Source of the DNA: Streptomyces sp. NRRL F-5123
GTDB taxonomy: Bacteria; Actinomycetota; Actinomycetes; Streptomycetales; Streptomycetaceae
Direction of reading: 5' to 3'
Length of the DNA: 64,000 bases
Assembly: GCF_000721495.1 (NCBI RefSeq)
Contig: NZ_JOHY01000023.1
Location: 29,075 to 93,074, forward strand
Position numbers and translations under genes: made by a program. Position 1 is the first letter of the stretch. The number at the start of each line of letters is the position of its first letter. Shown in pieces: positions 1-9,017 of the stretch. The notes under the pieces were generated by a model. It was not told the origin of the DNA. It was given only the letters and a program-made list of their open reading frames with translations, and did no database searches.

Positions 1-1640
1 ATGATCAGCGTGGTGGGTCGGCGGGTCGCGGCCCGCAGCCTGTCGTGGATCTCGGACTCCACGCGCGCGTCGATCGCCGAGGTCGCGTCGTCGAGCACCA
101 GCACGGCCGGGTCGCCGAGCAGCGCGCGGGCGAGCGCGATGCGCTGCCGCTGCCCGCCGGAGAGCGTCAGGCCCTGCTCGCCGACGACGGTGTCGTAGCC
201 CTGCGGCAGCCGCCGGACGAACTCGTCGGCCCGCGCGATCGCGGCGGCCTCGCGGATCCGCTCCTCCGGGGCGTCAGGGGCGCCGTAGGCGATGTTGGCC
301 CGCACGGTGTCGGAGAGCAGCAGGCTCTCCTCGAAGACGTAGCCGATCGCCGAGCGCAGCGAGGCCGTCCGCAGCTCGCGCACGTCCGTGCCGCCGACCC
401 GCACCGCGCCTGACCCGACGTCGTAGAAGCGCGGCAGCAGGGCCGCGGCGGTGGACTTGCCGGAGCCGGCCGGGCCGATGAGGGCGACGGTCTCGCCGGG
501 GGCGATGTCGAGGCTGAAGCCGCGCAGCAGCGGGCGGCCGCCGTCGCCGTAGCCGAAGGTGACGTCCTGCCAGCTGAGGGCGGGCGGGCCGGGCGGCAGG
601 TCGGCGGCGCCGGGGGCGTCGGTGATCACGGGGGCCTCGTCGATGACCTCCAGCACGCGCTCGGTGCCGGCGCGGGCCTGCTGCCACACCGTCAGCAGCG
701 TCGCGACCTGGCGGACCGGGGTGACGAACGAGCCGAGGTAGCTGGTGAAGGCGAGGAAGGTGCCGAGCGAGATCCGGTCGTGCAGCGCGAGCCAGCCGCC
801 GAGCGCGAGGACGGCGACCTGGCCGAGCGCGGGCACCGCCTGGAGGGCGGGCGTGTAGCGGCTGGTGTAGCGCACGACCCGCAGCCGGGAGGCGAACAGC
901 CGGCGGGCACGCCCCTCCAGCGCGGTCAGCTCGCGCCCCTCCTGCCCGAAGCCCTTGACCACCCGCACGCCGGTGACCGCGGCCTCGACGGTGGAGGCGA
1001 CCTCGGCGGCCTCCTGCTGGGCGTGCCAGTTCGCGGGGAAGAGGTGCCGGCGGCTGCTGCGCACGACGATCCACAGCAGCGGGCCGACGACCAGCGCGAC
1101 GAGCGTCAGCAGCGGTGAGAGCCACGCCATGAAGCACAGCGAGACGACGAACATCAGGGCGTTGCCCGTCATGTTCGGCAGGAACTGCAGCAGCGTCTGG
1201 ATCAGGGTGATGTCGGAGATGGACCGGCTGACGACCTGGCCGGTGCGCAGGTCGTCCTGCTGCCTGCCGCCGAGGCGCAGCAGCGCGGCGAAGGCGTCGC
1301 CCCGCAGGTCGTACTGCACCCCCAGGGACAGCCGCCCCGCCCGGTAGCGGCGGGTGAAGCCGCCCAGGAAGCGGACCGCGCCGAGCCCGGCGAGCAGGCC
1401 GATCCACCAGCCGAGCGGGCTGTCCGCGCCGGACGCGACGGCGTCCACCACGTGCCGCAGCACCAGCGGCAGGACGGCGGTGGCGGTCGCCGCGACGACC
1501 GCGCCGCCGAAGGCGGCGACGAGGTCGGTGCGGTGGCGCAGGCAGTAGCCGGCGAGCCGGCGGATCCAGCCGGGGTGCGGCGCGGCCGGGCCGGCCGCCG
1601 CGGCGGCCGGCCCGGGTGCGGCGCTCGTACAGTCGGTCAC
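1..1640 (-). CDS. ABC exporter, fused membrane and ATPase domains (3' end outside window)
   Basis: The 546 visible residues form an ABC-type exporter half. An N-terminal membrane domain with several hydrophobic spans covers about residues 40-330. A nucleotide-binding domain follows, with Walker A GPAGSGKST near 389, signature LSGGQ near 490 and Walker B VLVLDD near 512. The D-loop SAID is present and the H-loop lies beyond the left edge. It starts with GTG, and the GTG overlaps the TGA of the upstream monooxygenase (GTGA), so translation is probably coupled. An exporter at the end of an uptake and monooxygenase operon is unexpected; it may remove a toxic product or simply be co-transcribed. 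The substrate cannot be read from sequence. It may continue as a half transporter or as a double-length fusion. Confidence 0.88.
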   Translation of the reverse strand, partial: MTDCTSAAPGPAAAAAGPAAPHPGWIRRLAGYCLRHRTDLVAAFGGAVVAATATAVLPLVLRHVVDAVASGADSPLGWWIGLLAGLGAVRFLGGFTRRYRAGRLSLGVQYDLRGDAFAALLRLGGRQQDDLRTGQVVSRSISDITLIQTLLQFLPNMTGNALMFVVSLCFMAWLSPLLTLVALVVGPLLWIVVRSSRRHLFPANWHAQQEAAEVASTVEAAVTGVRVVKGFGQEGRELTALEGRARRLFASRLRVVRYTSRYTPALQAVPALGQVAVLALGGWLALHDRISLGTFLAFTSYLGSFVTPVRQVATLLTVWQQARAGTERVLEVIDEAPVITDAPGAADLPPGPPALSWQDVTFGYGDGGRPLLRGFSLDIAPGETVALIGPAGSGKSTAAALLPRFYDVGSGAVRVGGTDVRELRTASLRSAIGYVFEESLLLSDTVRANIAYGAPDAPEERIREAAAIARADEFVRRLPQGYDTVVGEQGLTLSGGQRQRIALARALLGDPAVLVLDDATSAIDARVESEIHDRLRAATRRPTTLI

Positions 1641-3031
1641 GAAACCTCCGGGAGTGCGATGCCGAGGTGCCCGGCGCCGACCGCGCCGGTGTCCGCGGGG
1701 TCGAAGAGCCGGTTGGCGGGTCGCGGCAGCCCGTAGTGCTCGCGCAGCGTGCGGCCGGTGTACTCGGTGCGGAAGAGGCCGCGCTCCTGGAGGATCGGCA
1801 CGACCCGGTCGACGAACAGCTCCAGGCCGGAGGGCAGCACGGCGGGCATGATGTTGAAGCCGTCGGCGGCGCCCGCGTCGTACCACTCCTCGATGGTGTC
1901 GGCGACCTGCTCCGCGGTGCCGGCGAAGGTGCGGTGGCCGCGGCCGCCGCCGAGCCGGCCGATGAGCTGGCGCACGGTCAGCCGCTCGCGCCGGGCCAGC
2001 TCCACGATGAGGGTGAAGCGGCTCTTGGCGCCCTCGATCTCGTCCTCGCTGGGGATGTCCGCGGGCAGTTCCCTGTCCAGCTCCAGCCGCTCGGGCTCGA
2101 TGCGCAGCGTCCTGGAGAGCTGCCGCACGGCGTACTCGGGGCGGATCAGCCGGTCCAGCTCGTCGTCGAGGGCGTGCGCCTGCTCCTCCGTGTCGCCGAT
2201 GACGGGCACGATGCCGGGCAGGATCTTGATGCCCTCGGGGTCGCGCCCGAAGGCGGCGGCGCGCTGCTTGACGTCCTTGTAGAAGGCGACGGCCTCTTCG
2301 AGGGTCTGCTGGGCAGTGAAGACCGCCTCGGCGTAGCGGGCGGCGAAGTCCTTGCCGTCCTCGCTGGAGCCCGCCTGCACCAGGAGCGGGTAGCCCTGCG
2401 GGGAGCGCTGCACGTTGAGCGGTCCGTCCACCCGGAAGTACGTACCCCGGTGGTCGACCTTGCGCACCTTGTCCGCCAGCGCGTGGACGCCGGACTCCTT
2501 GTCGGCCACGACCGCGTCGTCCGACCAGCTGTCCCACAGCTTCGTCGCGACGTCGACGAACTCGGCGGCACGCAGGTAGCGGTCGCGGTGCAGCGGGGTG
2601 TCGTCGAGGCCGAAGTTGCGGGCCGCCTCGGCGCCCGCGGTGGTCACGATGTTCCAGCCGGCCCGGCCGCCGGAGACGTGGTCCACCGAGGCGAACCGGC
2701 GGGCCAGGTTGTAGGGCTCGTTGTAGCTGGTGGAGGCCGTCGCGATGAGGCCGATGTGCTCGGTGGCCGCGGCGAGCGCGGTGAGCAGCACGGTGGGTTC
2801 CAGCTTGCTGCCGGGGCGGCGGCCGGGGTCGCCCATGAGTACGGGGCTGTCGGCGAGGAAGAGCGAGTCGAGCCGGCCGCGCTCGGCGATACGGGCGAGG
2901 TTGCGGTAGTGGTCGATGTCGGTGCCGCCGGAGGCCGGGCTCTCCGGGAGCCGCCAGGCCGCCTCGTGGTGCCCGACGGACATCAGGAAGGCGTTGAGGT
3001 GCAGCGGCTTGCGGTCAGTCCTGGGGGTCAT
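1637..3031 (-). CDS. LLM-class FMN-dependent monooxygenase (NtaA/SnaA/DszA/SoxA family)
   Basis: This 464-residue protein has the length and layout of the NtaA/SnaA/DszA/SoxA branch of the bacterial luciferase superfamily. It shows the family N-terminus with LNAFLMSVGHHEAAWR, a GRAGWNIVT segment near residue 128 and the AARNFG stretch after it. These enzymes use reduced FMN supplied by a separate reductase to oxygenate and cleave C-S or C-N bonds. The flavin reductase at the head of the operon is the likely partner. The start overlaps the end of the ATPase gene by 17 bp. Beside a sulfonate-type ABC importer the likely job is releasing sulfur from an imported organosulfur compound; the exact substrate is inferred only by context, and an aminopolycarboxylate substrate is also possible. 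Confidence 0.9.
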   Translation of the reverse strand: MTPRTDRKPLHLNAFLMSVGHHEAAWRLPESPASGGTDIDHYRNLARIAERGRLDSLFLADSPVLMGDPGRRPGSKLEPTVLLTALAAATEHIGLIATASTSYNEPYNLARRFASVDHVSGGRAGWNIVTTAGAEAARNFGLDDTPLHRDRYLRAAEFVDVATKLWDSWSDDAVVADKESGVHALADKVRKVDHRGTYFRVDGPLNVQRSPQGYPLLVQAGSSEDGKDFAARYAEAVFTAQQTLEEAVAFYKDVKQRAAAFGRDPEGIKILPGIVPVIGDTEEQAHALDDELDRLIRPEYAVRQLSRTLRIEPERLELDRELPADIPSEDEIEGAKSRFTLIVELARRERLTVRQLIGRLGGGRGHRTFAGTAEQVADTIEEWYDAGAADGFNIMPAVLPSGLELFVDRVVPILQERGLFRTEYTGRTLREHYGLPRPANRLFDPADTGAVGAGHLGIALPEVS

Positions 3032-3857
3032 GGTCCTTCTTCTCCTGGTCGTGGCCGAGCGCGCGGGCGTGGGCGGCGTGCGCGGGGGCCTCGTGCACGC
3101 CCTCCGGCAGCTCCACGCCGAGCGCGGCGAGCAGGGTGTCGCGGTACTCCTGGAAGCGCGGGTCGCGGCGGCTGCGCGGGCCGGCCAGGTCGACGGCGAT
3201 GTCCAGCGCGATCCGGCCGTCCTCCAGCACCAGGACCCGGTCGGCGAGCTCGACGGCCTCGTCCACGTCGTGCGTGACCAGCAGCACGGCAGGGCGGTGC
3301 CGCTCGTACAGCTCGCGCAGCAGGCCGTGCATCCGCAGCCGGGTCAACGCGTCGAGTGCCCCGAACGGCTCGTCGGCGAGCAGCAGTTGGGGCTCGCGGA
3401 CGAGGGCCCGGGCCAGCGCGGCGCGCTGCTGCTCGCCGCCGGACAGCTCGTGCGGCCAGGACCGCTCGCGGCCTTCGAGTCCGACCTCGGCGAGCGCGGT
3501 GCGGCCGCGCTCCCTGGCCTGCTTGCCGCGGATGCCGAGCACCACGTTGTCCAGCACCCGCAGCCAGGGCAGCAGCCGGGAGTCCTGGAAGGACAGCGAG
3601 ACCCGCTCGGGCACGCTCAGCTCGCCGGACCCGGCCACCCCGTGGTCGAGCCGGGCGACCGCCCGCAGCAGCGTGGACTTGCCGGAGCCGCTGCGGCCCA
3701 GCAGCGCGATGAACTCGCCCTGGCCCACCGTCAGGTCCAGCTCCCGCAGCACGTCCCGGTCGCCGAAGGAGCGGACCAGCCCGGCGGTGCGGACGGCGGG
3801 GGCAGCGGCGCCCGCGGCGGGGCGCTCGGCGGTCAGTCCGCCAGGGTGCGGCGCCAT
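3015..3857 (-). CDS. SsuB/TauB-type ABC transporter ATP-binding protein
   Basis: The 280-residue protein has all ABC ATPase motifs: Walker A GRSGSGKST at about 54-62, Q-loop SFQDSRLLPW at about 89-98, signature LSGGEQQ at 138-144, Walker B LLLADEP at 158-164 and H-loop VTHD. The SFQDxRLLPW Q-loop is typical of the nitrate/sulfonate/taurine importers. It powers import with the overlapping permease gene (25 bp overlap) and the Tat lipoprotein. The ATG was chosen because residues from there match the family and lie within the permease gene end. Cytoplasmic, membrane-associated. Confidence 0.92.
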   Translation of the reverse strand: MAPHPGGLTAERPAAGAAAPAVRTAGLVRSFGDRDVLRELDLTVGQGEFIALLGRSGSGKSTLLRAVARLDHGVAGSGELSVPERVSLSFQDSRLLPWLRVLDNVVLGIRGKQARERGRTALAEVGLEGRERSWPHELSGGEQQRAALARALVREPQLLLADEPFGALDALTRLRMHGLLRELYERHRPAVLLVTHDVDEAVELADRVLVLEDGRIALDIAVDLAGPRSRRDPRFQEYRDTLLAALGVELPEGVHEAPAHAAHARALGHDQEKKDHDPQD

Positions 3858-4723
3858 GACAGCACCTTCCGTTCTGCGGCACGCACGACCGCGTCGGAGA
3901 CGAAGCCGAACACCCCGTAGACCACGAGGCCCACGATGATGACGTCGGACTGGGCGTACTGCTGGGCCTGGAACATCATGTAGCCGAGGCCTTTGGTGGC
4001 GTTGACCTGCTCGACCACGACCAGGCCGAGCCAGGACGCGGTCACGGCGAGCCGCAGCCCGACGAAGAAGCCGGGCAGCGCGCCGGGCACGACGACCCGG
4101 CCGATGAACTGCGGCCGCGTCAGGTCCAGGCTCTCGGCCAGCTCGACGTACCTGCGGTCGATGCCGGTGAGCGAGGCGTAGGTGTTGATGTAGACGACCA
4201 CCGCGACGCCCACGGCGATCACGACCACCTTCATCTCCTCGCCGATGCCCAGCCACAGGATCATCAGCGGCAGCAGCGCGAGCGACGGGATGGCCCGCTT
4301 GACCTGGAGCGTGCCGTCGAGCAGGTACTCGCCGATCCGGCTGAGGCCCGCGGCGACCGCGAGCGCCACCCCGGCGAGGACGCCGAAGAGCAGCCCGAGG
4401 CCGGCGCGCTGCAGCGAGACCAGCATGTTGTCCTGCAGCCGCCCGCTCCTGACCAGGTCGACGAAGGTGGAGGCGACGGTGCCGGGGCCGGACAGGATAC
4501 GCGGGTCGAGGTAGCCGAGCGCGGACGAGGCCCACCAGACCAGCACCAGCAGCACCGGTCCGGCCAGCCGCGCGAAGGGGATCGCCCGGCCGGGCCCGAG
4601 CCGCCGGCGCCGGGCCGGGGCCTTGGCGGTTCGGACGGGTGCGGCCCGCCCGGGTACGGGGAGGCTACGGGCGCCGGCCGGGGCGGGCGGCGCCGCGACG
4701 GGCGTGGAAAGGATGTCGGTCAT
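3833..4723 (-). CDS. SsuC/TauC-type ABC transporter permease
   Basis: The 296-residue integral membrane protein has an N-terminal Pro/Ala-rich cytoplasmic tail of about 45 residues and then about six hydrophobic segments (for example PVLLVLVWWASSALGYL and GLLFGVLAGVALAVAAG). The EAA-type loop that contacts the ATPase is visible around ELAESLDLTRPQFIGRVVVP. The start codon overlaps the stop of the binding-protein gene as ATGA. This is the transmembrane channel of a sulfonate/taurine/nitrate-type importer. The GYMMFQAQQY motif near the C-terminus is typical of this family. Confidence 0.92.
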   Translation of the reverse strand: MTDILSTPVAAPPAPAGARSLPVPGRAAPVRTAKAPARRRRLGPGRAIPFARLAGPVLLVLVWWASSALGYLDPRILSGPGTVASTFVDLVRSGRLQDNMLVSLQRAGLGLLFGVLAGVALAVAAGLSRIGEYLLDGTLQVKRAIPSLALLPLMILWLGIGEEMKVVVIAVGVAVVVYINTYASLTGIDRRYVELAESLDLTRPQFIGRVVVPGALPGFFVGLRLAVTASWLGLVVVEQVNATKGLGYMMFQAQQYAQSDVIIVGLVVYGVFGFVSDAVVRAAERKVLSWRRTLAD

Positions 4724-5787
4724 GACGCCACCTGGTATTCCGCCGGTACGGCCTGCGAGGCCAGTCCCTCGAAGCGCCGGTCGAAGAGCTTCGCCGCCTC
4801 GACCTTCGGGACGAAGCCGCCGGCGGCCATCAGGTCGGCGGTCTCCTGCTCCCAGGCGATGGCCCGGTCCCAGCTGCGCGGGAAACGCGGCTGCGACTGG
4901 GAGGCGACGATGCGCTGCCCGTCCGCGGCCGTCACGCCCTGGTCCTTGACGTAGTAGCGCTGGATCCACTGGTCGGTGTGCTCCCACGCCCACACCACGC
5001 CCTGCGCCCACAGCGGGACGAAGCTGCGGATCGCGGCGACCTTGGCGTCGTCGTTGAGCACCTCGGTGGGCGCCCACAGGATCGTGAGCAGGTCGATCAC
5101 GTCGGTCTTCACGCCGCGCGCGCCGTCCTTGCCGTACTGGCCCAGGTACTTGGTGAGCGACGGCTCGCCGAGCGGGGCGACGTCCACCTGCTTGGACTGG
5201 AGGGCAGTGAGGAACTGCGTGCTGGGCAGCGGGACGAGCGAGACGTCGGAGTTCTTCAGGCCCGCCTCCTTCAGCGCGCGCAGCACCACCACGCCCTGGG
5301 CCTGCCCTTGCGAGAAGGCGATCTTCTTGCCGCGGAAGTCCGCGGCGGAGGCGATGGCGTCGCCGGAGCCGGGCGCGGTGGCGAAGGTGTAGATCGGGTG
5401 GTCGCGGGACTGCACGGCGACGATCCGGGCGCCGACCTTGATGGCCTCGGCCTGGATCGGCGGGACTCCGGCGTTGCTCGCCAGGTCGATGGAATGCGCC
5501 CGGAATCCCTGGATCACGTCGGGTCCCGCCGACAGGTTCGGCCAGCTGGACACCGTGAAGGGCAGCTGCTTGTCGAGTCCGGACTCGGCCAGTTGGAGCT
5601 GCGCGGTGTGGATGGATATCGCGAGTTTCGTGCCGGGCGGCGGCGCCCCCGAGGGAAGTGCGCGGGTCGGCACCGTGTCGATCGAGGCGGACGTGCTGCG
5701 CGAGCAGGCGGCGAGCAGCGCGGCGCCTCCGGCGAGGGCGAGGAAGGACCGGCGCGGGACGGTTCCGGCGGTGGAGCGATGAGTCAT
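4720..5787 (-). CDS. Tat-exported lipoprotein, substrate-binding protein of sulfonate-type importer
   Basis: A 355-residue protein. The chosen ATG gives a twin-arginine signal (PRRSFLALAGG, Arg12-Arg13) and a lipobox ending at Cys28 (LLAAC), so it should be folded, exported by Tat and lipid-anchored. The mature part resembles the NMT1/SsuA-like periplasmic-binding fold. An in-frame ATG nine codons upstream exists but would place the twin arginines further from the start. It overlaps the permease by 4 bp. It captures the ligand outside the cell for the importer that follows. Confidence 0.9.
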   Translation of the reverse strand: MTHRSTAGTVPRRSFLALAGGAALLAACSRSTSASIDTVPTRALPSGAPPPGTKLAISIHTAQLQLAESGLDKQLPFTVSSWPNLSAGPDVIQGFRAHSIDLASNAGVPPIQAEAIKVGARIVAVQSRDHPIYTFATAPGSGDAIASAADFRGKKIAFSQGQAQGVVVLRALKEAGLKNSDVSLVPLPSTQFLTALQSKQVDVAPLGEPSLTKYLGQYGKDGARGVKTDVIDLLTILWAPTEVLNDDAKVAAIRSFVPLWAQGVVWAWEHTDQWIQRYYVKDQGVTAADGQRIVASQSQPRFPRSWDRAIAWEQETADLMAAGGFVPKVEAAKLFDRRFEGLASQAVPAEYQVAS

Positions 5788-5852
5788 GGCGATTCCTGGG
5801 GATGGGCCGGACACGGGATCCGGTCGTGGTGTGGGCGGGAGGTGAGGGTCGG

Positions 5853-6356
5853 TCAGAGCGTGTGGTAGCGGCCGTCGTGGAAGAGCAGCGGGGAGCGGGA
5901 GCCGCCCGTCCAGGCCTCATGGACCCGGCCGATCACGACCCGGTGGTCGCCGGCCGGCACGATCTGCTCGAACTCGACGCGCAGCCAGCTGCTCACCCCG
6001 TCGAGCACCGGCTCGCCCTGCGGCAGCCGGCGCCACGCGGTGGGCGCGGCGAAGCGGTCGATGCCGCTGGTGGCGAAGGTCCTGGCGACGTCCTCCTGGT
6101 CGGCGCCCAGGAAGTTGACGACCGCGCTGCCCGCCTGCTCGACGTGCGGCCAGGACGACGCGGTGACCCCGATACCGAAGGACACCAGCGGCGGGTGCAG
6201 GGACAGCGAGGTGAGCGAGGTCGCGGTGAAGCCCGCGGGGCCGCGCCCGGCGTCGACGGTGACGACCACCACGCCTGCGGGATGGTTGCGGAATACCTGC
6301 TTGAAGCGCTCGGGGTCGATCCCCGAGGCGGGAAGTGACGGCACGGTGATGGTCAA
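5853..6356 (-). CDS. NAD(P)H:FMN flavin reductase domain protein
   Basis: The 167-residue protein is a single flavin-reductase-like domain: FRNHPAGVVVVT near residue 20, the TATSLTSLSLHPPLVSFGI segment and a C-terminal GRVHEAW. Such proteins supply reduced FMN to two-component monooxygenases, here most likely the luciferase-family enzyme encoded three genes downstream. The start is TTG, supported by GGGGGAG three bases upstream; an internal GTG four codons later has no ribosome site at a usable distance. It is the first structural gene of the operon and is preceded by an unusually long leader of about 460 nt that contains a cysteine-rich short ORF. Confidence 0.88.
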   Translation of the reverse strand: MTITVPSLPASGIDPERFKQVFRNHPAGVVVVTVDAGRGPAGFTATSLTSLSLHPPLVSFGIGVTASSWPHVEQAGSAVVNFLGADQEDVARTFATSGIDRFAAPTAWRRLPQGEPVLDGVSSWLRVEFEQIVPAGDHRVVIGRVHEAWTGGSRSPLLFHDGRYHTL

Positions 6357-6527
6357 CGTCTCCCCCAGTTCGGTCGGGAGCGGGTGCGGGAAGGGGTGCG
6401 GCGGGCGTACGCAGGCGGCGCTGCCGGCCGTACGCGCGCAGCGGACAGCCCCACGCCCGCGGGCCGCACGGCATCGGGCGGCGGGGCGCGGTGGAGCTGA
6501 CGGGGAAGGGGATTAACGGGACGGAAT

Positions 6528-6546
6528 ACGGCAACGGAATTGCCGT
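6528..6546 (-). promoter_or_regulatory. inverted repeat in the operon leader
   Basis: ACGGCAA and TTGCCGT form perfect 7-bp arms around a 5-bp loop. The repeat lies between the cysteine-rich short ORF and the flavin reductase, within the predicted 5' leader. It could be a regulator site or an RNA hairpin in an attenuation system. There is no U tract, so it is not an obvious intrinsic terminator. Confidence 0.35.
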
Positions 6547-6645
6547 GCGCCACTCACGCAAACAGCCGCGGCCATTGACGGTCGCGCAACGGCCGGTGCG
6601 GGAAATGGGCGCCGGAAGGAATTCGGTTCGCTTGCCCTAGGTGCG

Positions 6646-6816
6646 TCACACGGCGCGGCAAGCGCCGGTACAGTTCCCGTACGGGCAGCGGGAAACGGCG
6701 TCGGCCGCACATCGGCGACCCGCCCGGCCGAAGCACTCGCGGGCCGGCACGGAGGGCACACGGAAGGAGTGCGCCGCACTCGGCGCCTGCTCCGGATTCC
6801 GCTGATTGCCGTTCAT
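6646..6816 (-). CDS. candidate leaderless cysteine-rich leader ORF (56 codons)
   Basis: This short ORF has an ATG six bases downstream of a plausible -10 hexamer, so the transcript would begin at or next to the start codon. Of its 56 residues five are cysteine (positions 28, 36, 44, 49, 53), concentrated toward the end (CPYGNCTGAC). It has no ribosome site, consistent with leaderless translation. It precedes the flavin reductase by 289 bp on the same strand. I recognise no protein family. It may be a regulatory leader whose translation senses charged tRNA-Cys, as known for short upstream ORFs of sulfur genes in mycobacteria. Whether it is translated is inference. Confidence 0.4.
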   Translation of the reverse strand: MNGNQRNPEQAPSAAHSFRVPSVPARECFGRAGRRCAADAVSRCPYGNCTGACRAV

Positions 6817-6822
6817 GAATCC

Positions 6823-6851
6823 ATTCTCGCGTGCGAGTTCTGCCAGGTCAA
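6823..6851 (-). promoter_or_regulatory. predicted promoter of the sulfur-type operon
   Basis: On the minus strand TTGACC (6851-6846) and GAGAAT (6828-6823) are separated by 17 bp, a good match to the vegetative HrdB consensus. The ATG of the short ORF begins at 6816, at the expected transcription start. The surrounding sequence is clearly less GC-rich than the neighbourhood. Confidence 0.5.
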
Positions 6852-6916
6852 CAATGCAACTGCCTGAATTAAGTCGGAATTCGGGCCCGCCGCCGGGCGG
6901 CACGGAGCGCATGCGC

Positions 6917-8182
6917 TCAGCACACCGCGGGCAGCGCGGGCCAGGGTCCGAGCGGGTCGGCGTAGAGGGCGCCGAGGGCCACCGCGCCGCCCGCTACCGG
7001 CAGGACGGAGCCGGTGAAGCTGCTCGGCAGTACCGCGCTCGCCGGGTCGTCGCACACCCAGGAGCGGGCGCCGACCTCCGCGCGCATGACGTCCAGACAC
7101 TCCGGGAGCCGCCCGGCGCCCGGCTCGACGACGACCACGACCTCCGGGTCGAACACGTCGAGCAGCAGCGCCACCGCCCGGCCCACCAGCACCGCCCGGC
7201 GGCGGAAGAGCGCCACCGCCCGGGGCTCGCCGGCCAGCGCGAGGTCGAGCAGCGCGCGGAAGTCTGCGACGTCCAGGCCGCGGGCGGCGGCCTGGCGCAC
7301 CAGCGCGGGTTCGGACACCTCGGACTGCAGGCAGCCCGGGGTGCCGCAGCCGCACGGCTCGGCGGGCGGCCCGCCCGTCCCTTCCGGCCCGACAGGCAGG
7401 TGCGCGACGCTGCCCGCCGCAGAGCGCGGCCCGCGGTGCACCCCGCCGTCGGTGGCGAAGGCGGCGTCCACGACGGCGCCGACGAAGAGCAGCACCGCGC
7501 TGCTCCGGGTCGTCACCGCGCCGAACAGCTGCTCCGCGCGGGCCAGCGCCCGCGAGTGGCTGTCGACGTGCACGGGCAGTCCGGTCGCGGCGGCCAGCAC
7601 CTCACGGGCCGCCACGTCCCGCCAGCCCAGCCGCGGGTGGTCGACGATCACACCCGCGTCCGGATCGACCCACTGTCCGGTCGCCACGCCGAGGGCGAGG
7701 ACGGTACGGCCGTCCGCGTGCTCCTCGACCAGCTGCGGCAGCCGGGCGGCGAGACCGTCGAGGACCTGCCGCGGATCGGTGCCGCGGTGCGGCCGCCGGT
7801 CGTCGGCGACGATCCGGCCGCGCAGGTCCATCAGCGCGAGGGTGCTGTGGGCGACGGCGATGTGCGCGCCCGCCACCAGGTAGCGGCCGGTGTCGATCTC
7901 CAGCGGGATGTGCGGGCGGCCCAGCCCGCGCGGGCCCGGCGCCTGCGGGCGCTCGGCGACCAGCCCGCGGGCCAGGAACTGCGTACAGTGCCCACTCACC
8001 GCCGCGGGCGACAGCCCGGTGAGCCGCGCGACGGTGCTGCGCGCCACCGGCCCGTGGTCGAGGATCGCGCGCAGCACCACGGGGGCCCCTGCGGGGCGGC
8101 GCGGCTGCGCCGCGGACGCCGCAACGTCCGGACGGCGCAAAGGAGTCGGGGCGGCGGAACGGTCGGGCGGCAGGACTACCAC
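6917..8182 (-). CDS. ROK-family transcriptional regulator
   Basis: The 421-residue protein starts with GTG (GGAAGG ribosome site) and has an N-terminal winged helix-turn-helix (about residues 34-90, VARSTVARLTGLSPAAVSGH) joined to a ROK domain. The ROK zinc motif is present as CGCGTPGCLQS. The ASKHA nucleotide-binding motifs of sugar kinases are weak, so it is probably a regulator and not a kinase. It lies upstream of, and on the same strand as, the importer and monooxygenase operon and behind a canonical leader peptide, so it is the likely local regulator. Its effector is unknown; the usual sugar ligands need not apply. Confidence 0.85.
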   Translation of the reverse strand: MVVLPPDRSAAPTPLRRPDVAASAAQPRRPAGAPVVLRAILDHGPVARSTVARLTGLSPAAVSGHCTQFLARGLVAERPQAPGPRGLGRPHIPLEIDTGRYLVAGAHIAVAHSTLALMDLRGRIVADDRRPHRGTDPRQVLDGLAARLPQLVEEHADGRTVLALGVATGQWVDPDAGVIVDHPRLGWRDVAAREVLAAATGLPVHVDSHSRALARAEQLFGAVTTRSSAVLLFVGAVVDAAFATDGGVHRGPRSAAGSVAHLPVGPEGTGGPPAEPCGCGTPGCLQSEVSEPALVRQAAARGLDVADFRALLDLALAGEPRAVALFRRRAVLVGRAVALLLDVFDPEVVVVVEPGAGRLPECLDVMRAEVGARSWVCDDPASAVLPSSFTGSVLPVAGGAVALGALYADPLGPWPALPAVC

Positions 8183-8293
8183 GGTGGGCCTTCCAGGTCG
8201 TCGACGGCGGCGGGGGCGCAGCCGTGCACGCGCGCCGGCGGCGAACCGGCGGGGCGGGCACCCCCGTTGGGGCTCCGTACGGAGCTCGTGCGG

Positions 8294-8374
8294 TCAGACC
8301 TGGTGACACGCGGCGGAGCACACGCGCTTGAGGTCGACATGACCCCGCGTCGTGAGGTGTGTGGTCCGCTGCAT
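8294..8374 (-). CDS. leader peptide (26 aa, TRxHVDLxRV type), leaderless
   Basis: This 26-codon ORF encodes a peptide containing LTTRGHVDLKRVCSAAC, the recurrent short-peptide motif found in streptomycetes upstream of sulfur-metabolism and ABC-import genes and usually annotated 'putative leader peptide'. Two cysteines are at positions 19 and 23. The ATG lies seven bases after a TACGTT -10 hexamer, so the mRNA is predicted to be leaderless. The ROK regulator starts 111 bp downstream. The peptide is probably a regulatory leader and not a functional protein product; the mechanism is inferred. Confidence 0.8.
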   Translation of the reverse strand: MQRTTHLTTRGHVDLKRVCSAACHQV

Positions 8375-8381
8375 GCCGCGC

Positions 8382-8411
8382 AACGTAACCGGAACGGGTG
8401 AACGCGGTCAA
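8382..8411 (-). promoter_or_regulatory. predicted promoter of leader peptide and ROK gene
   Basis: TTGACC (8411-8406), an 18-bp spacer and TACGTT (8387-8382) on the minus strand, with the leader-peptide ATG seven bases on. The geometry is almost the same as that of the promoter at 6823-6851. Confidence 0.55.
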
Positions 8412-8570
8412 ACTCCTGACCGCATGGTGGACGCATCCCGGCCACGGAGCGGACAGCCGCGGCGCGTCCGTCGCACCCCAACTCGGCGGCTCCCGGCGCC
8501 GGTCCCGCTGCTGGCGAGAGGAGTCGGGCGGCTGCGTGTTTCGCTACAGTCGGTGACGGGCTCCGGTAGC

Positions 8571-9017
8571 TCAGGCGCGTGTACCCGCACTCGGCTGCGC
8601 TGAGGTCGTGCGGGCCCGGTTCTCACGGATCTCGTCGTGATGGGCGGCGGCCCAGCCGACCAGGGACGTGGCGATCTCGTGGAGGCCGCGGCCCAGCGGG
8701 GTCAGGGCGTACTCGACGCGCGGGGGAACCTCGGCGTAGGCGGTGCGGGTGATCAGGCCGTCCTGCTGGAGTTGGCGCAGGGTGAGCGTGAGCATGCGCT
8801 GGGAGATCCCGGGGATTTGGCGCTGCAGGTCGGTGTAGCGCAGCGGGCCGGGCTCCAGGACGGCGATCAGCAGCAGGCTCCACTTGTCGCCGACGCGGTC
8901 CAGGACCTCGCGGATGAAGGCCATGTGCTCGGCGGGGATCGCCGCGCACGGCCCGATCGCCGCAGCCCCGACCGCCTCCGCCCCACCGGCCGCCTTCGTT
9001 TCGCGGGTCTGTTCCAT
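8571..9017 (-). CDS. HxlR-family winged-helix regulator
   Basis: The 148-residue protein carries the HxlR domain (residues about 30-120): DRVGDKWSLLLIAVL, then RYTDLQRQIPGISQRMLTLT and LRQLQQDGLITR. The ATG at 9017 was preferred because AGAGGA sits nine bases upstream; an extended start at 9062 adds a non-family segment. It diverges from the DsbA-family gene with 105 bp between them, the usual layout for HxlR repressors that respond to reactive electrophiles, quinones or redox stress and control the adjacent gene. Cysteine residues that could act as sensors lie in the N-terminal arm (Cys near 22). Confidence 0.9.
   Translation of the reverse strand: MEQTRETKAAGGAEAVGAAAIGPCAAIPAEHMAFIREVLDRVGDKWSLLLIAVLEPGPLRYTDLQRQIPGISQRMLTLTLRQLQQDGLITRTAYAEVPPRVEYALTPLGRGLHEIATSLVGWAAAHHDEIRENRARTTSAQPSAGTRA

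Follow-up and report, generated by a model that had tools for sequence, protein, structure and literature searches.

A putative leaderless cysteine leader before an organosulfur importer operon beside a ROK-family regulator gene in Streptomyces

Described cysteine leaders and the locus in Streptomyces

The polycysteine leaderless short ORFs of mycobacteria are reportedly the subject of Canestrari et al. 2020. According to the accessible portions of three reports, such frames act by attenuation (PMC9094748, PMC9031893, PMC13236596). Candidate cysteine leaders of the cys and cbs operons were described by Seliverstov et al. 2005, and the available part of that work places them in Mycobacterium, Propionibacterium and Bifidobacterium, with Streptomyces not among the genera reported there (PMC1262725). 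Like the leader described here, these candidates have runs of Cys codons near the stop, no conserved terminator and a pyrimidine-rich spacer. The same excerpt also covers the tna operon of E. coli, in which the Rho entry site is shielded by a ribosome that has stalled where the leader ORF ends (PMC1262725).

Within Streptomyces itself, the accessible text of a re-annotation of S. lividans TK24 gives eight leader peptides for Leu, Trp, Ala, Ile, Met and Thr (PMC8079986). Several of them are leaderless and some are without a clear intrinsic terminator, like the ORF considered here, whereas none is called cysteine-dependent in that text, unlike our reading of this ORF. One of them, the leader called metL (MSTTSDRTPATEATTTPGARCMCRRMCAF), has three Cys codons near its end and could be a leader through which the metNIQ importer responds to cysteine. 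The available part of another report states that Rhodococcus qingshengii IGTS8 has a ROK protein, encoded close to sulfur genes, whose abundance is higher on dibenzothiophene (PMC8557817). A literature search, with most subscription papers outside it, listed no report on the present leader, nor any in which a ROK protein controls an operon of this kind in Streptomyces.

The features discussed below lie on the minus strand of the window, by which we mean the whole 64,000-nucleotide stretch of Streptomyces sp. NRRL F-5123 that was analysed. A leaderless-type, Cys-rich short ORF of 56 codons plus stop (6646..6816, TGA at 6646) is separated by a leader spacer (6367..6645) from the ribosome binding site (RBS) of a flavin reductase gene, which has a TTG start and GGGGGAG at 6366-6360 (5853..6356; PF01613, 127.6 bits). 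This gene is followed by that of an SsuA-like ABC substrate-binding protein (4720..5814; TIGR01728, 94.4 bits, below the cut-off of 163.5), for which a later ATG start at 5787 is possible, by frames for an ABC permease (3833..4723) and an ABC ATPase (3015..3857), both named by eye from the sequence, and by the gene of an FMN-dependent monooxygenase of the NtaA/DmoA family (1637..3031; TIGR03860, 570 bits, cut-off 279.7). A ROK-family regulator gene (6917..8182; PF00480, 103.2 bits) lies upstream of the short ORF. The preliminary description had seen a long leader of a flavin-reductase/importer operon for organosulfur scavenging; the long leader is supported, and the organosulfur assignment fits both the SsuA-like protein (below its cut-off) and the monooxygenase (above its cut-off).

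As far as the mycobacterial polycysteine sORFs are covered by the accessible text, the window family shares with them a leaderless-type start, a short frame, Cys codons towards the stop and sulfur genes downstream, and protein-like selection is needed in neither case. The window family differs from them in its unrelated peptide, in belonging to another order of Actinobacteria, and in its organosulfur importer/monooxygenase operon, its ROK neighbour and its nearly invariant upstream element; furthermore, a cysteine response and an unmasking of the RBS are predictions for the window family. The leaders modelled by NF042936 (Ms4527A family) and NF042934 (HVDLxRV type) are likewise leaderless-type and Cys-containing, but the window ORF matches neither model and is without the HVDL motif. 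A leader of that type stands instead on the neighbouring ROK gene, and the motif occurs under a related promoter in some paralogous loci. We regard the window leader as most likely a new example of the kind of switch known from mycobacteria, widely conserved in relatives.

The promoter, the short frame and their conservation

Direct reading of the minus strand bears out the earlier claim of a TTGACC-17-GAGAAT-6-ATG geometry: TTGACC (6851-6846) is followed by a spacer of 17 nt, GAGAAT (6828-6823), GGATTC and the ATG (6816-6814). The -10 hexamer thus lies 6 nt before the ATG, a geometry that fits an ATG at the 5' end of the transcript. The promoter assignment (6823..6851) rests on this reading, on a promoter scan, in which 6851-6823 was the only sigma-70-like site in 6300..8600 (dinucleotide shuffles: mean 0.1, sd 0.2), and on the alignment of relatives. 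Directly upstream, abutting the -35, lies a conserved 22-bp element, CTTAATTCAGGCAGTTGCATTG (6852..6873), which is a candidate regulator site, with the ROK protein as the suspected binder.

The 28-bp motif composed of this element and TTGACC (6846-6873) occurs as a single copy in its own genome at up to 3 mismatches and is present in 24 of 391 genomes of the order, with none for a reversed-pattern control. An exact scan of a named collection placed it on 50 contigs, all named Streptomyces, Actinacidiphila or Peterkaempfera. A query made of the promoter and frame start matched 13 of 35 genomes of the genus, weak matches included; these are exactly the genomes with a ROK relative of at least 75% identity, while seven others have a relative of only 50-54%, a co-occurrence that is partly trivial because the leader adjoins the ROK gene.

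The list of sites held 85 rows, from which 23 duplicates (identical over the 250 nt behind the promoter) were removed. All 62 remaining loci have an ATG 29-30 nt after TTGACC, and 60 of them carry a separate short frame behind the promoter, across which the 22-bp element is nearly invariant. The two loci omitted from the frame counts are L045 and L112, in which the flavin reductase frame runs on from the leaderless-type ATG with the promoter element kept; a further frame is incomplete (L068), leaving 59 with a stop. One locus outside the regular expression (L089) was read separately as MTSPQRNAPRTPGPTSCRRVIPAPASARRCCPRRCPGN. Another (L144), outside the 62-locus list and likewise read separately, has ACG where the others have ATG. 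L045, from Streptomyces sp. NRRL F-5126 and identical to L093, may be viewed together with L112 from S. montanisoli as a case of natural loss of the presumed attenuator.

The gene neighbourhood is kept as well. A ROK relative adjoins 58 of the 60 separate-frame loci, and a flavin reductase gene stands behind 56 of them, the exceptions being L008, L014, L017 and L068, the last of which is cut by the locus end. In L014 (S. acidipaludis) and L017 (A. rubida), the same promoter and Cys frame precede an alkanesulfonate-monooxygenase-like gene (TIGR03565, 238.8 and 239.9 bits, below the cut-off of 518.2), and both genomes additionally hold the ROK locus; the Cys ORF thus stands before sulfur-metabolism genes in the window and, below model cut-offs, in these two loci. 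At L008 and L078 (Actinacidiphila bryophytorum), the ROK gene and the Cys leader are kept, and no flavin reductase or binding-protein gene is found within about 1.6 kb behind the leader, the operon having apparently been lost or moved.

Sequence conservation is highest in the promoter region: in an alignment of eleven loci, the best-kept parts run from CGACTTAATTCA to TTGACC and from the -10 to the ATG. Within the spacer, a block at 6417-6483 finds matches in five relatives of the same genus (G026, G020, G031, G006 and G012). That the promoter is the best-kept part would also be expected if only promoter and operator were functional and the open frame were a by-product of GC-rich DNA, an explanation further favoured by the two loci without a separate frame and by a second frame that is likewise open in 15 of 21 cluster representatives. 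The Cys codons argue against it. When the 59 frames with a stop were grouped into 21 clusters at 50% peptide identity, Cys made up 73 of 861 in-frame codons, and the two alternative frames gave 23 and 16 of 840. Two or more Cys among the final 14 codons occurred in 15 of the 21 clusters and not in the remaining six, whereas 300 nucleotide shuffles averaged 1.2 such clusters and never exceeded 6; enrichment and 3'-end clustering both exceed every one of these shuffles. Since short frames ending in Cys-Cys are also found at the same place in a paralogous locus (see below), we hold the promoter-only explanation to be improbable.

In the window ORF itself, the Cys codons are numbers 28, 36, 44, 49 and 53, and the earlier description of a 56-codon frame with five Cys codons late in it (within the last 29 codons) is therefore correct. 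This copy is without the adjacent Cys pair that most relatives of the same genus have. Among all leaders pooled, Cys accounts for 213 of 2395 residues (8.9%), 172 of the 213 lying in the C-terminal half. While the reading frame and its 3'-end Cys cluster are kept in relatives, the spacing of the Cys codons, named earlier as a point to check, is not. The leaders use TGT 166 times and TGC 47 times for Cys, and the neighbouring genes TGT 63 times and TGC 312 times (of 375); a P-value for this contrast would not be independent, because the leader sequences are related.

A conserved frame could also encode a functional small Cys-rich protein, as might be suggested by an N-terminal stretch that is alike across clades and by M-Q-R columns that are invariant in nine aligned frames. 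Against such a role, only 73 of 243 substitutions fall at third positions, which is no excess; this codon-position test covered 26 pairs, several of them cross-clade and poorly aligned, with 57 out-of-register substitutions outside the 243. Frame lengths range from 18 to 74 codons, with 8-12 codons in most paralogous loci, and no separate frame exists at two loci. Furthermore, a database search of 5.8 billion proteins gave 396 candidates, none at E 0.01 or better, and NCBIfam and Pfam profiles held no family for the window frame (NCBIfam: none at E up to 0.01), in line with the earlier remark that it does not match the standard leader peptide. A protein role appears very improbable to us, and the lack of third-position excess, the variable length and the missing database match fit a frame that acts in cis. 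In three clade alignments (A1-A3), the first 21 nt of the leader frames (ATGACCAGCCGACAGCGG...) are nearly invariant within clades, third positions included.

The paralogous locus was recognized in L133, L135 and L137, where a ROK relative of about 50-53% identity precedes a variant of the element (TTAATTCAGAAA..., with GAATGTTGACA at its end). This is followed by a leaderless-type frame and then by the gene of a binding protein, which in L133 is SsuA-like below the model cut-off; L134, L136, L138 and L139 are ROK loci of the same kind without the variant element. A pattern covering both promoter classes matched 133 of 391 genomes of the order (control: none), namely 25 of class I, about 106 of class II (the paralogous locus) and 2 intermediate, as counted by hand and with one site per genome in the rows read. 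Class II leaders were examined in 22 of 30 fetched loci and in L133, L135 and L137. All 25 have two to three Cys, a ROK relative before the leader and a binding protein behind it; 21 are frames of 8-12 codons such as MSPLTSCRTLCC, the short frames ending in Cys-Cys, and four are longer and carry the standard motif, such as LTKCRVIDLMRVGRTLCC. The two intermediate loci encode MDRHxVNLVKRRVIDLMRVGRSSCRR with one Cys. Class II Cys leaders at the same position indicate that the place behind the promoter is a leader-peptide place, of which the window family is a divergent occupant. The ROK relatives of L134, L136 and L138 (52-53%) represent a third type. Behind them, GAGAAT-6-ATG opens a short, nearly invariant frame that contains a single Cys, and the TTAATTCA element is missing.

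A possible mechanism and the RNA structure of the leader

We consider it likely that the window ORF is a leaderless cysteine-sensing regulatory leader, which lets the operon be expressed in cysteine shortage. This reading draws on the promoter geometry, the recurring frame with its Cys cluster, the locus context, the second leader on the ROK gene and the paralogous locus. Points that weigh against it are the two loci lacking a frame of their own, the ACG start of L144, the six clusters with fewer than two late Cys, the missing Cys pair of the window copy and the RNA folding results given below. Transcription would start at or beside the ATG, as the position of the -10 suggests, and ribosomes would translate the short frame at once. 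When charged tRNA-Cys is scarce, they would stall at the Cys codons in the later part of the frame, and the stall would lift a block on the flavin reductase/importer/monooxygenase operon, so that organosulfur uptake and desulfurisation would be switched on; with ample cysteine, the ribosome would run through and the block would form. The conserved upstream element would probably serve a regulator that sets transcription itself, for which the product of the neighbouring ROK gene is the likeliest candidate. As to the block, occlusion of the RBS, and hence a translational effect, is most likely, the main alternative being Rho-dependent termination in the C-rich spacer.

Alternative hairpins in the leader, as envisaged in the preliminary description, did not emerge as a conserved fold or terminator from RNAalifold, pairing or folding tests. 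No intrinsic terminator (a GC-rich hairpin with a T run) was found in 6300..8600, which is weak evidence because shuffles average just 0.6, and an Rfam 15 search of 5800..8700 gave no match at E up to 0.5. Of the 56 leaders that precede a flavin reductase gene, 13, 7 and 8 were aligned by clade and analysed with RNAalifold. Covariation terms of -1.07, +1.5 and -0.23 kcal/mol gave no support, although 6 of 53, 7 of 80 and 4 of 58 predicted pairs are changed on both sides in some sequence. The window leader folds like its shuffles (z -0.34). A local hairpin at the Shine-Dalgarno sequence, attractive by eye, was rejected, its mean pairing being 0.72 as compared with 0.75 for flank shuffles (55 loci, 60 shuffles each; the set omits L010, the start of which was not recognised).

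Occlusion of the RBS by the leader found no general support in two further models, which are a weak test of RBS hiding opened by a stalled ribosome. Leader:RBS pairing was no stronger in general in matched loci (-27.1 kcal/mol) than in mismatched ones (-27.3 kcal/mol), and ribosome stalls modelled on 53 leaders below 520 nt had no general RBS-opening effect; for the window leader, placing a ribosome on the Cys codons in the model leaves the RBS closed (mean 12.8 vs 12.3 kcal/mol free). The pairing is conspicuous in a few single loci and in one clade of eight related loci, in which 0-4 of 60 codon shuffles reach it. The leaders of this clade carry an anti-RBS (UUCUCCCGG against CCGGGAGAG) immediately ahead of their Cys codons, and in seven of the eight the RBS is opened most when the ribosome is modelled at codons 31-33.

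These results bear directly on the alternative in which the sensor is the same cysteine leader with a transcriptional readout, Rho terminating transcription in the spacer unless a stalled ribosome shields its entry site. The spacers of the 55 loci are indeed C-rich (42% C vs 25% G), but C-rich sequence is common before Streptomyces RBSs in general. Whereas the missing general signal in the pairing and stall models favours Rho, the clade with an anti-RBS has it precisely where the translational model predicts. Rho termination of this sort has been put forward for the terminator-less mycobacterial cys leaders, in the available part of that work (PMC1262725). On balance, a Rho readout seems to us rather unlikely, and we regard translational occlusion as somewhat likelier.

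Other local structures were seen. The CPG-type leaders (25 distinct) can form a small hairpin in which the Cys codons pair with the stop codon (paired fraction 0.81); support is weak, given that 9 of 1000 dealt-arm shuffles reach 0.81 and a slide of -3 still yields 0.73. A similar Cys/stop hairpin appears in many single folds of 23 paralogous leaders, which says little because their sequence hardly varies. Spacer folding lies modestly below that of shuffles (mean z -1.24, 11 of 55 below -2, the loci not being independent).

The ROK gene, its own leader and a possible two-tier gate

The ROK gene is preceded by a leader peptide of its own, of the standard Cys type, MQRTTHLTTRGHVDLKRVCSAACHQV (8294..8374), which scores 32.2 bits with NF042936 (cut-off 45) and 24.2 bits with NF042934 (cut-off 27), below the cut-off in both cases. 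The earlier statement that the promoter geometry recurs upstream of the ROK gene holds in similar form: TTGACC is followed by 18 nt, TACGTT, 7 nt and the ATG of MQRTTHLTTRGHVDLKRVCSAACHQV. Where 578 nt or more were available ahead of the ROK gene, 34 of 35 loci proved to have a leader of the LTTRGHVDLKRVCSAAC type, the single miss being L070; with only 311-368 nt available, one of eight did. A DNA pattern for the standard leader motif matches six times in the own genome. Further standard-type Cys leaders stand there at L114, L116, L117 and L118, that of L114 preceding a frame which resembles, by eye, an alkanesulfonate monooxygenase.

The preliminary description had proposed that the two units form a paired attenuation circuit. 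The pairing of the two leaders is real and the arrangement unusual; the regulatory circuit that they may form, and its function, is what we infer from it. Under this proposal, the standard-type leader of the ROK gene would mean that one signal gates the regulator and, independently, its target. Three further class I loci have the leader on the regulator gene, as compared with 2 of 12 class II loci (L174 gave no site); in the other 10 it was not found.

More tentatively, and at less than even odds in our estimation, the locus may represent a two-tier cysteine gate, in which the ROK regulator and the target operon each have a leaderless Cys leader, drawn from two sequence families, so that regulator and target would both be metered by ribosomes. 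The target leader would have been rebuilt several times, as the standard motif, as frames of 8-12 codons and as frames of 18-74 codons, under one old, nearly fixed, ROK-linked promoter, and in the window family the gate would act as a feed-forward switch, responding only to a genuine lack of cysteine.

The locus offers a defined candidate site at which a ROK protein regulating sulfur metabolism may bind, and the natural variants, which are without a separate frame or have 8-codon and 74-codon leaders behind related promoters, constitute a test bed for the proposed control. If the reading of the window ORF as a cysteine-sensing leader is true, the leader family involved is one that was not found annotated in the protein search, and cysteine control read by the ribosome would extend from mycobacteria to the Streptomycetaceae and to organosulfur scavenging.
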